Source: Synechococcus sp. KORDI-100
Lineage (GTDB): Bacteria; Cyanobacteriota; Cyanobacteriia; PCC-6307; Cyanobiaceae
Length of the DNA: 64,000 nucleotides
Assembly (NCBI RefSeq): GCF_000737535.1
Contig: NZ_CP006269.1
Location: 868,001-932,000, forward strand
Direction of reading: 5' to 3'
Below, one piece after another: positions 55,586 to 59,022 of the stretch. The notes under the pieces were generated by a model. It was not told the DNA's origin. It saw nothing but the letters and a program-made list of their open reading frames with translations, and did not search any database. Each line of letters starts with the position of its first letter. Position 1 is the first letter of the stretch. The position numbers and the translations under genes are program-made.

Positions 55586-56236
55586 ATGCGCGATCATCCA
55601 ATCCCCCCGGTCACTGAGCCGCTGCAATACCGGGCTATTGGTGTCGTCAGGGGCGTCTACAAGGCCAAGGAAGACGATCAACTCACCCGCGGCATCCTGC
55701 TGGATGCTGATGGCAACGAGCTCGAAACCGTTGTGCTGGGGAGGGTGCTCACGCTGATGCGCCGACATCTGGCCATGAATGAACCCCACCTCTGGGTGGT
55801 TTACCCCCGTTGTCGCGAAAGTGAGCATCTCCACCTTCAAATTGCCGGGATCTGGGAGCCCAGCACCCTTTCGCCTGATCAGGCCGGCGCGGAAGACAGC
55901 CTCACGGAAGGAGACGACTTCTTCTCCGTCAGGGGAGAGTTGATTTACACGAAGCCCGAAACGGGCGAACTGGTGGTGAAAATTCGCCAGCAACCCAGGG
56001 CTGATGGCAGCCGTCCGCTGCCATTCAAGATTCAGGCGAAAGGGACTGTGCCTCTCGAGCACCTGCGTCACTTCGTCAGCCTTGAGCTTCGCCGTCAGGG
56101 CCAGGCCCTGCATCTGGAGCGATTTGAAGTGATCGCTCCGATGCCGACGCGTGGAGGCAAATCCAAGGGCGGTCGAGGCCGTCAGGCCACCGGACGCGGT
56201 CCATCCATCCAGAGAAGCGGCCGCGCCGGCGTCTGA
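55586..56236 (+). CDS. conserved cyanobacterial hypothetical protein
   Basis: 216 residues. The core is a beta-rich domain (YRAIGVVRGVYKAKEDDQLT, GNELETVVLGRVLTLMRRHL, HLWVVYPRCRESEHLHLQI, FFSVRGELIYTKPETGELVV), and the C-terminus is a basic Gly/Arg/Lys tail (PTRGGKSKGGRGRQATGRG) suited to binding RNA. It starts a co-directional cluster, and its stop overlaps the HEAGH gene. A TAGAAT near 55543 could be a -10 element. Confidence 0.8.
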   Translation: MRDHPIPPVTEPLQYRAIGVVRGVYKAKEDDQLTRGILLDADGNELETVVLGRVLTLMRRHLAMNEPHLWVVYPRCRESEHLHLQIAGIWEPSTLSPDQAGAEDSLTEGDDFFSVRGELIYTKPETGELVVKIRQQPRADGSRPLPFKIQAKGTVPLEHLRHFVSLELRRQGQALHLERFEVIAPMPTRGGKSKGGRGRQATGRGPSIQRSGRAGV

Positions 56237-56880
56237 TGGAGGAGGGGCAAGGCTCCACAGGGGCGCTCAGAGCGGGTGTCGCCGTTGCGGTGGTCACCGG
56301 TCTGGGAGCCTTCGGACCGGCAATCGGAATCTCCCCCGCCTGGATTGTGATCCTCGTCGGAGGGGGATTGGTTGCCTTGAGTGTCGATGCAGCCACCTGT
56401 CAGGGCATGGGAGGTCATGTTCTGGCCGAGGCGCTGCCCGGAGGCGAGGCCAGGTTGCGACGCATCGCTGTTCATGAAGCCGGCCATCTCCTGATCGCTG
56501 AGGATGAGCAGCTCCCTGTCCAGCGCGTGATGGTGGGCACCTTGGCCTGTCTTCAGGCTGGTTTGCGCAGCAGCGGAGCGACTGAATTCACCGTTCCGGA
56601 CAGTGTTCGCATGCCTCTCGAGGACCTGCGCCGCTGGAGCCGGGTCTTGCAGGCTGGCATTGCTGCCGAAACGGTCGTTTACGGCATCGCTCGCGGAGGT
56701 GCTGATGACCGAGCTCTCCTGGGACGTCTCTGGGGTCTGTCTGGTCACGATGTGGCCACCGCTCAGAGGGAACAACGGCGTGCTCGTCGTGAGATTGAAC
56801 AGCAGCTGAAACGCCGTCACCAGGACCTTGAGACCAAGGCCGGCGAATTGCTCAGCCTTGCGCCGCGACTGATGCGATGA
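56236..56880 (+). CDS. membrane protein with FtsH-type peptidase (M41) motifs but no AAA domain
   Basis: 214 residues. Two hydrophobic helices (about 14-32 and 34-50) precede the zinc-peptidase motif HEAGH at residues 80-84. Further on, IAAETVVYGIARGGADDRAL at about 142-161 parallels the FtsH segment that supplies the third zinc ligand, an Asp after GA. A helical tail rich in R/E/Q follows. The AAA ATPase of FtsH is missing. It may be an ATP-independent membrane protease or a regulator. Start overlaps the preceding stop (TGATG). Confidence 0.8.
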   Translation: MEEGQGSTGALRAGVAVAVVTGLGAFGPAIGISPAWIVILVGGGLVALSVDAATCQGMGGHVLAEALPGGEARLRRIAVHEAGHLLIAEDEQLPVQRVMVGTLACLQAGLRSSGATEFTVPDSVRMPLEDLRRWSRVLQAGIAAETVVYGIARGGADDRALLGRLWGLSGHDVATAQREQRRARREIEQQLKRRHQDLETKAGELLSLAPRLMR

Positions 56881-56890
56881 CGAACGACGG

Positions 56891-58105
56891 GTGACGGTGG
56901 AACTGCACGTTGATTGTCCGACCGGTCTCGCTGGGGACATGCTGCTGGCTGGTCTCATCGATCTCGGGGTGCCCCTGGAGGTGATCGAGCGCCCCTTGAT
57001 TGCCCTCGGTCTCGACGGTCGCTACCGGCTTGATGCTCTCGAGGCGCGCAGTGGTGGCCTGCGGGGACGGCGCGTCGTCGTCCAGGGCCTGGAGCCGGAT
57101 CCGCCGGCAAGGCACTGGGCTGAAATCCGCCGTCAGATTCAGGACGCGGACCTGGATCGGGAGCTGCAGACGCAGGTGCTGAGGGTGTTTGGTGCCCTGG
57201 CCGATGCCGAGGCTGCCGTTCATGGCTGTGAGGCTGAAGCCGTGCATTTTCATGAAGTCGGCGCCATCGATGCCCTGGTGGATGTGGTCGGCGTCTGCGC
57301 TGCCGTGCGCCATCTTCAGCCGGCCATCGTGAGCTGCACCCCGCCACCGATGGGGCATGGATCCGTGCCGACAGCCCACGGTGTCTTGCCGGTTCCTGCT
57401 CCCGCCGTAATGGAACTAGCCCGCCGTCATGCTGTTCCGCTCAAGCATTCGGAAGGATTCCCCCCTGGAGAGCTGACAACGCCCACCGGTCTGGCAATGA
57501 TGGCGACCTTGGCTGAGCGGTTCGCCCCTCCCTCGACCTTTGTTCCCCTTGCGGTTGGCGTGGGCCTCGGACATCGCGACCTCGATCGTCCCAACCTGCT
57601 GCGAATCTCTCGTTTGCAGGTTGATGCGGAGGTGCCATCCGGGTTGCGGTGGCAACCACTCGTGGTTCAGGAAGCCTGGATCGATGACGCATCCCCGGAG
57701 GATCTGGCCTGGTTGCTCACACGGTTAAGAGAAGCTGGTGCGTTGGATGCCGCGGTTGTTCCTCTGCAGATGAAGAAGGGACGGGCCGCCCACGCGGTGA
57801 CAGCGTTGGTCAGCCCCGAGAAGGCGGAATCGCTTCGCCAGGTCTGGCTGGCGACAGGATCCAGTCTTGGCCTGCGCGAACGGCAGCAGGGGCGCTGGGT
57901 CTTGCCACGCCGGTCTGGAACACTCAAAACGCCCTGGGGAACCCTGCGCGCCAAGCAGATGCGTCGACCCGATGGCCGCTGCAGTGTGAAACCAGAAGCG
58001 GATGATCTTCAACGCCTGAGCCGAACGAGTGGATGTTCCATCGAGGAGTTGCGTTTGGCCGCTGCGTCCGTGCCCTTTGAAACCGAGGAGTCGTGGGACT
58101 GGTGA
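56891..58105 (+). CDS. larC: LarC-type nickel-insertion protein
   Basis: 404 residues from the GTG at 56891. LarC hallmarks: DCPTGLAGDMLLAGLIDLGV, HFHEVGAIDALVDVVGVC, CTPPPMGHGSVPTAHGVLPVP, and EGFPPGELTTPTGLAM; the C-terminal half is the LarC2-like CTP/metal domain (WIDDASPEDLAWLLTRL). LarC completes the nickel-pincer nucleotide of lactate racemase. larA, larB and larE are not nearby. Ten bases after the HEAGH gene. Confidence 0.92.
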   Translation: MTVELHVDCPTGLAGDMLLAGLIDLGVPLEVIERPLIALGLDGRYRLDALEARSGGLRGRRVVVQGLEPDPPARHWAEIRRQIQDADLDRELQTQVLRVFGALADAEAAVHGCEAEAVHFHEVGAIDALVDVVGVCAAVRHLQPAIVSCTPPPMGHGSVPTAHGVLPVPAPAVMELARRHAVPLKHSEGFPPGELTTPTGLAMMATLAERFAPPSTFVPLAVGVGLGHRDLDRPNLLRISRLQVDAEVPSGLRWQPLVVQEAWIDDASPEDLAWLLTRLREAGALDAAVVPLQMKKGRAAHAVTALVSPEKAESLRQVWLATGSSLGLRERQQGRWVLPRRSGTLKTPWGTLRAKQMRRPDGRCSVKPEADDLQRLSRTSGCSIEELRLAAASVPFETEESWDW

Positions 58106-59022
58106 TGCGCTGGCTGCGCCAGCCAAAGTTGTGGATCACCCTCGCCAGCCTGGTACTGATCGGAATCGCCCTGGTGCAACAGGGCGGTCAGCTCAGGGAG
58201 CAGACCCTGGATGCTCGGGGCTGGTGGTGGTTGTTGCTGGGTCTCGGGATCAGCTGGATCAGCATTCTCGTGAACGGAGCCGCCTGGCGTCTGTTGCTGG
58301 ATTGGCTCGGTCATCGTCCAGCGCAGCTGGACGTGATTCCCTTATTCGTGCGAAGCAATCTGCTCAAGTACCTGCCCGGCGGCATCTGGCACCTTGTTGA
58401 GCGGTTGCGTGTCCTGCGATCCCAGATCGGGGCAGGACCGGCGCTGGCAGCGGTGATCCTGGACCCGCTGCTGATCGCGGCAGCGTCTGTGCTGATGATC
58501 GTTGTTGGCGGCTGGCAGAACGGATTGCTGTTGGTGGCGCCATTGCCCGCTCTCCTGATGGTGCCGCGCTGGCGGGAACCGATCCTGCAACGTCTTGAAC
58601 GCATCAAGGCCCGCCAGTTCGAGAGCAAGGGCGGGGGAAGCCTTGAGATCGAGACCTACGGCAGTGGTCGCGGCGGGTATCCATGGACACCGATGGCTTG
58701 GCAATTGGCCTTCGTGGCCTGCCGTTTCCTCGGTTTTTATTGCTGCGTCTTTGCGTTCAGGCTGCCGGATCCGGCCTGGTTCATCTGGCTGGCGTCCTTT
58801 TCGCTGGCCTACGCCGTTGGTCTGGTGGTGCCAGGGGCCCCTGGAGGTCTCGGGGTGTTTGAAGCCACGCTGTTATTGCGGCTGGGCAGTTCGGTCGCGG
58901 AGGCACCGCTGCTGGCGGTGGTGCTGAGTTACAGGGTCATCTCAACGTTGGCGGACCTGCTGGCCGGGGGCGCGCTGGTTGTGGATGGGGCCTTGCTGCG
59001 ACGCCTCAGCCCCCGTCCATAA
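58105..59022 (+). CDS. UPF0104 / lysylphosphatidylglycerol-synthase-TM-like membrane protein
   Basis: 305 residues from the ATG at 58105, which overlaps the larC stop (TGATG). About eight transmembrane helices, with the family segment LFVRSNLLKYLPGGIWHLVE and the C-terminal VVPGAPGGLGVFEATLLLRL. It is probably a flippase-like integral membrane protein. Part of the same plus-strand cluster as the HEAGH protein and LarC. Confidence 0.85.
   Translation: MRWLRQPKLWITLASLVLIGIALVQQGGQLREQTLDARGWWWLLLGLGISWISILVNGAAWRLLLDWLGHRPAQLDVIPLFVRSNLLKYLPGGIWHLVERLRVLRSQIGAGPALAAVILDPLLIAAASVLMIVVGGWQNGLLLVAPLPALLMVPRWREPILQRLERIKARQFESKGGGSLEIETYGSGRGGYPWTPMAWQLAFVACRFLGFYCCVFAFRLPDPAWFIWLASFSLAYAVGLVVPGAPGGLGVFEATLLLRLGSSVAEAPLLAVVLSYRVISTLADLLAGGALVVDGALLRRLSPRP

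Follow-up and report, generated by a model that had tools for sequence, protein, structure and literature searches.

A conserved ATP-free membrane protein of cyanobacteria with a predicted M41 peptidase fold

The M41-like gene and its protein

The window, a 64,000-nucleotide stretch of the Synechococcus sp. KORDI-100 genome, carries on its plus strand a gene for a putative ATP-free, M41-like membrane metallopeptidase of 214 amino acids (P0001; positions 56,236–56,880), assigned from its open reading frame, profiles, homologues and predicted fold. The ATG start codon shares one base with the stop codon of the preceding gene (TGATG; stop at 56,234–56,236), which encodes a conserved protein of 216 amino acids with a basic tail (55,586–56,236). 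Downstream lie larC, for nickel pincer cofactor biosynthesis (56,891–58,105; PF01969, E = 1.2e-114; TIGR00299), and a gene for a flippase-like membrane protein (58,093–59,022; LPG_synthase_TM, PF03706, Pfam E = 5.8e-15), all on the plus strand.

The M41-like gene is single-copy in its genome, where four ordinary FtsH genes with frames of 601–689 amino acids are also found. Comparison with eight relatives of the same genus gave dN values of 0.034–0.153 and, in six of the eight comparisons, a dN/dS of 0.054–0.083, the other two being saturated in dS; the low ratios imply strong purifying selection. Together with the homologues and the invariant residues described below, they confirm 56,236–56,880 to be a real gene, beyond chance.

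Secondary structure in the predicted model and hydropathy both place a first membrane helix at residues 6–30 (56,251–56,325) and a second at residues 34–55 (56,335–56,400), forming a predicted hairpin with a very short loop. By hydropathy, the hydrophobic part of the chain holds both N-terminal helices, and no strongly hydrophobic 19-residue stretch starts beyond residue 39. The HEAGH motif occupies residues 80–84 (56,473–56,487) and is predicted to supply the catalytic Glu and two zinc ligands. A segment AGIAAE...YG at residues 140–150 (56,653–56,685) matches GGRAAEE..FG of FtsH in the alignment and is followed by GGADD at residues 154–158 (56,695–56,709), with Asp158 predicted to act as the third ligand of zinc. 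The original prediction of a short membrane protein with HEAGH at residues 80–84 was borne out, and the downstream GA-D segment it had pointed to reads GGADD, with Asp158 falling on the Asp column of FtsH.

His80, Glu81, His84 and Asp158 were each found in 159 of 159 distinct homologue rows; because a HEAGH pattern had been used to retrieve 75 of these rows, the motif is more fairly judged from the rows obtained independently of it, 84 of 84 (own row counted), in which all four residues were likewise kept. A consistent lack of the His/Glu/Asp triad among homologues, which the original prediction had raised as a possibility, was therefore not seen. Gly141, Glu145 and Gly154 were also present in all 159 rows, and Asp51 and Arg76 in 158 of them. 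In the alignment with FtsH, the Asp158 column contained Asp in 24 of 24 FtsH rows.

Scoring against curated profiles gave sub-threshold values throughout. On P0001, the Pfam M41 model (PF01434) reached 17.6 bits with a cut-off of 29.9, M50 (PF02163) 14.4 bits with a cut-off of 27.2, DUF922 15 bits with a cut-off of 27 and the NCBIfam FtsH model TIGR01241 12.2 bits with a cut-off of 600; three other family members scored 18.8, 19.5 and 22.2 bits with PF01434, again under 29.9. The Pfam scan of P0001 yielded no match to an AAA domain, and M41, M50 and DUF922 were the only matches it gave, in agreement with the earlier claim that the protein has no AAA domain. The 159 family rows span 201–286 amino acids, and the Walker A-like string present in one of them is a chance occurrence. 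The family is thus named by neither Pfam nor NCBIfam at their cut-offs; with the Pfam cut-off applied, P0001 should not be classified as M41, nor should it be classified as FtsH.

Predicted fold and relation to FtsH

The AlphaFold2 model of P0001, built with 50 family sequences, had a pLDDT of 92.1 and a pTM of 0.84. It contains helices at residues 6–30 and 34–55 (the membrane hairpin), 58–66, 70–90 (carrying HEAGH), 102–107, 128–149, 156–168 (carrying Asp158), 173–193 and 195–208, and strands at 95–100 and 114–118. A Foldseek search against the PDB returned chains of FtsH, YME1 or AFG3L2, or of the Ycf2/Orf2971-FtsHi complex, as 48 of the best 50 rows, the other two being 5iqj; a single match reached E ≤ 0.001. 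With VIA-align, superposition on the integrative model of E. coli FtsH gave Z = 15.7 at 2.4 Å over 141 residues with 23% identity, and superposition on the crystal structure 3kds gave Z = 15.7 at 3.0 Å over 143 residues. The proposed superposition on the FtsH peptidase domain thus succeeded for model residues 57–210, a range that includes the helices carrying HEAGH and Asp158, the first 57 residues being barely covered. In this alignment, the outcome named beforehand as speaking against the prediction, a HEAGH helix lying away from the Asp segment, did not appear.

Profile searches pointed in the same direction. When PDB sequences were searched with the family profile, FtsH chains were found with a best whole-sequence E of 0.00034, the separate stretches each being weak, and the match aligned HEAGH, the Asp segment and a C-terminal helix with FtsH. 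In genome searches, FtsH genes were also picked up by profile A1, built from ten members (E down to 7.5e-9), and by the larger profile A2 (E down to 3.0e-6). Profile, predicted fold and conserved residues support the assignment of the soluble part of P0001 to the FtsH (M41) peptidase fold, and very likely the protein shares the catalytic chemistry of FtsH, as judged from its sequence and model.

The solved structure 5iqj from Vibrio cholerae, of unknown function, is likewise a stand-alone M41-like chain (Z = 10.1, 3.5 Å, 111 of 125 residues); it was compared by fold and, unlike P0001, is soluble as solved, without a membrane anchor. Among viral predicted structures, the best matches were FtsH-type proteins of giant viruses, and a 214-amino-acid phage protein named as M41-domain (A0A6J5RJ76) shares the fold (E = 0.015). 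Since 5iqj and A0A6J5RJ76 share the fold, motor-free M41-like proteins may be more widely spread.

When 25 family rows were aligned with 24 FtsH domains, the spacing from HEAGH to the Asp proved similar, at 70–86 residues in the family (median 76) versus 72–78 in FtsH (median 73.5). Counted onward from the Asp, however, the conserved Leu191 column is reached after 33 residues in the family versus 71 in FtsH, so that the family has lost, or never had, approximately 38 residues of the M41 domain; this gap lies downstream of the zinc Asp and ahead of the last helices. FtsH and the family are thus alike in the peptidase fold, HExGH, the GxAAE segment, the position of the Asp, the C-terminal helices and an N-terminal membrane anchor, and they differ in the AAA domain and the approximately 38 residues, both of which the family lacks. 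A further difference lies in the anchor of P0001, where, unlike in FtsH, only residues 31–33 separate the two helices, leaving no room for an extracytoplasmic domain.

In the tree computed from the same rows, all 24 FtsH rows lay on one side of a branch and all 25 family rows on the other, with support of 99/95, so that the phylogeny proposed against FtsH paralogues set the two groups apart. The tree is unrooted and its FtsH rows come from the cyanobacterial phylum only, some from its other classes; without FtsH of other phyla, it shows separation and not which group came first. A second, very divergent M41-like copy (L094:4039-4731, in genome G047) formed a long branch beside the FtsH side, its placement being unsure.

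By sequence, the family is a lineage apart from the sampled FtsH and not a cut-down paralogue. Recent truncation of an FtsH gene was ruled out by the separation of family and FtsH in the tree, and also by the gene upstream (55,586–56,236), which is a different conserved gene and not an AAA remnant. The original description as FtsH-like holds for fold and residues but needs qualifying, in that the Pfam M41 cut-off is missed and the lineage is separate. P0001 is a conserved ATP-free membrane protein for which the M41 peptidase fold is predicted; it represents a variation on a known kind and is not categorically new.

Distribution and gene neighbourhood

A single-sequence search at E ≤ 0.01 matched 50 of 58 other related genomes. 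The family to which the window belongs was surveyed through 200 genomes of 90% completeness or more, with presence set at E = 1e-20 or better, and the M41-like gene was found in 132; the remaining 68, which make up 16 of 34 genera, showed nothing better than 7.5e-9. Profile A2 was then run on twelve of these 68 and on 12 further genomes that had given no clear match, four from the same family and eight from the class; all matches lay in frames of at least 360 amino acids, bar one frame of 76. The matched frames were FtsH-size, or of about 360–450 amino acids and matching only around HExxH; one frame of 409 amino acids (genome G380) matched A2 at positions 31–97.

A search of 291 genomes across the phylum detected the family at E below 1e-50 in 94 of the 104 genomes of the same class but other families that were listed with a match, which is not a full rate, as 77 genomes of the 291, those without a match, lie outside that list. 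In other classes of the phylum, the best value among the matches listed was 1.5e-7, and the match with this value was FtsH-sized. A contig scan with one HEAGH pattern yielded at least 80 loci, all cyanobacterial by title among the matches listed, with Synechococcus, Cyanobium, Nostoc, Calothrix and Leptolyngbya among the named carriers. The family is therefore widespread in the class but patchy in the window's own family. Genome G047, with one clear and one divergent member, hints that the family may be as old as the class.

At two loci from genomes without the M41-like gene (L177 and L179), the homologue of the upstream gene is directly followed by larC, with a gap between the open frames of about 140 and 70 bases, respectively. 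As these neighbours remain side by side, the M41-like gene was either cleanly lost or never inserted there. A mobile or phage origin was considered but not borne out: tblastn of the gene against phages and plasmids gave no match at E ≤ 0.01, and PHROGs contained nothing for P0001.

The gene context was examined in 49 picocyanobacterial loci, comprising 20 from the related-genome search, 19 chosen mostly to span genera and 10 from the contig scan. A homologue of the 55,586 gene upstream and larC downstream were present on the same strand in all 49. Under a stricter rule, with the matched parts at most 400 bases away on both sides, the arrangement was retained in 41 of the 49, and in the other eight the matched parts were up to 1253 bases apart or overlapped. 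In 90 loci of other cyanobacteria, a set in which at least one contig is counted twice and some contigs end early, the flanking stretch examined contained no 55,586 homologue, no larC and no flippase-like gene. The coupling to these three genes that had been proposed is thus correct for the window and kept in picocyanobacteria, but it was not seen in the 90 loci from outside them, and the idea that the M41-like gene, larC and the flippase-like gene serve a single pathway is weakened by this lineage specificity (0/90 loci).

Of 78 genomes searched from the class (own genome counted), 77 carry the 55,586 homologue, and some of these lack the M41-like gene. The open frames of the homologues are between about 200 and 520 codons long. 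The 55,586 protein gave no NCBIfam match and a Pfam match at chance level only, and its AlphaFold model was poor (pLDDT 54.6). Outside picocyanobacteria, a VanY-type D,D-carboxypeptidase gene, assigned from one scanned example (PF02557, E = 4.1e-46; loci such as L026:4705-5553), lies upstream on the same strand in 36 of the 90 loci, at a distance of at most 300 bases in 28 of the 36 and with an overlap of 1–4 bases in four. Neither neighbour set points to a substrate.

Proposed activity and comparable proteins

The literature search returned no description of an ATP-free M41-like family in cyanobacteria, and no mention of one was found in the available text of two FtsH reviews (PMC9020784, PMC11287208). 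Such proteins had been called little described in picocyanobacteria; the family is no speciality of that group, being found widely across the class.

A known protein of comparable design is VIR3 (VIRESCENT3, At1g56180) of the plant chloroplast. According to the passages on it in PMC9166295, which cites the main VIR3 paper (Qi et al. 2016, JBC), VIR3 has membrane helices, no ATP-binding domain and a stroma-facing HEAGH at residues 235–239 that is needed for its function, and it is proposed to function as a monomer or as part of a small complex. The same passages name tAPX and GAPB as proposed partners, which were bound even when HEAGH was mutated and whose amounts were inverse to that of VIR3; the activity of recombinant VIR3 and direct proteolysis could not be assayed (PMC9166295). 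HEAGH, the membrane helices and the lack of an ATP-binding domain are shared with P0001, as far as VIR3 is described in that text (PMC9166295). VIR3 is a plant gene with its HEAGH at 235–239 instead of 80–84, likened here by description only. By analogy, P0001 is likely to be a cyanobacterial counterpart of VIR3; the match in design is close, and kinship is a lead.

Plant FtsHi proteins keep the AAA domain. They are without the zinc motif and thus the opposite of the M41-like family, both being FtsH relatives of altered make-up. Two further Arabidopsis loci may be M41-like. One of the two appears as 'unknown protein' in the available text of PMC3529323. As FtsHi proteins have lost the zinc motif (stated in the available text of PMC8643629), VIR3 fits better than the FtsHi proteins originally suggested as the plant comparison.

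In FtsH, the Asp is the third zinc ligand. Carrying this chemistry over to P0001, we consider it probable that the protein is a zinc endopeptidase anchored in the membrane, which has the catalytic fold of FtsH (M41) and operates with no ATP motor, zinc binding and catalysis being deduced from FtsH. The two-helix hairpin would serve as the membrane anchor and leave both termini on the cytosolic side, as suggested by the hairpin itself, FtsH and VIR3, and the peptidase domain would sit at the membrane surface. Zinc would be bound by His80, His84 and Asp158, with Glu81 as the general base activating water. Given that the AAA ring is missing and the M41 domain is shorter by approximately 38 residues, the protein probably acts alone or as a small oligomer. 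As it could not pull substrates apart without AAA, its targets would likely be proteins bound to the membrane or next to it, attacked at segments that are exposed, loosely folded or presented by a partner. It would cleave them to a limited extent or serve their regulated turnover, perhaps in response to stress, and would not unfold them processively.

The four full FtsH genes in the same genome and the shared predicted fold would also be consistent with an accessory peptidase subunit or regulator of ordinary FtsH hexamers, which enters or docks onto them and borrows their ATP motor. We regard this as unlikely, since the family lacks AAA and approximately 38 residues of the M41 domain, and since the re-searched picocyanobacteria without the M41-like gene still show FtsH-size matches, implying that FtsH does not need the M41-like protein. 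A catalytically dead pseudo-protease that binds partners, like plant FtsHi, would parallel the binding of tAPX and GAPB by VIR3 with mutated HEAGH (available text of PMC9166295), but it appears improbable with all four predicted active-site residues invariant in 159 of 159 rows, as FtsHi proteins lost the zinc motif (available text of PMC8643629). An intramembrane site-2-type (M50) instead of M41-like protease, as might be read from the weak Pfam M50 match (14.4 bits) and some fold likeness to SpoIVFB (Z = 5.8, the highest for M50 proteases in VIA-align), is hardly credible, because the HEAGH helix (70–90) is separate from the hydrophobic helices 6–30 and 34–55 in the model and the far stronger FtsH matches (Z = 15.7) cover the Asp segment and the C-terminal helices.

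With an ATP-free zinc endopeptidase as the preferred reading, a broader history may be outlined, which we put forward tentatively and with somewhat more doubt than confidence: the family could represent an ancient ATP-independent branch of FtsH-superfamily peptidases in oxygenic phototrophs, reaching back to the deepest of the sampled cyanobacterial lineages, never fused to AAA within cyanobacteria, handed to plants as VIR3 and its relatives, and dropped by many picocyanobacteria.

A compact, motor-free protein of the FtsH peptidase type is present in much of the cyanobacterial genome set tested. The family may offer a small bacterial system in which the catalytic claim for VIR3 could be settled, and it poses the question of how an active site of the FtsH fold would choose and engage its substrates without ATP-driven unfolding.
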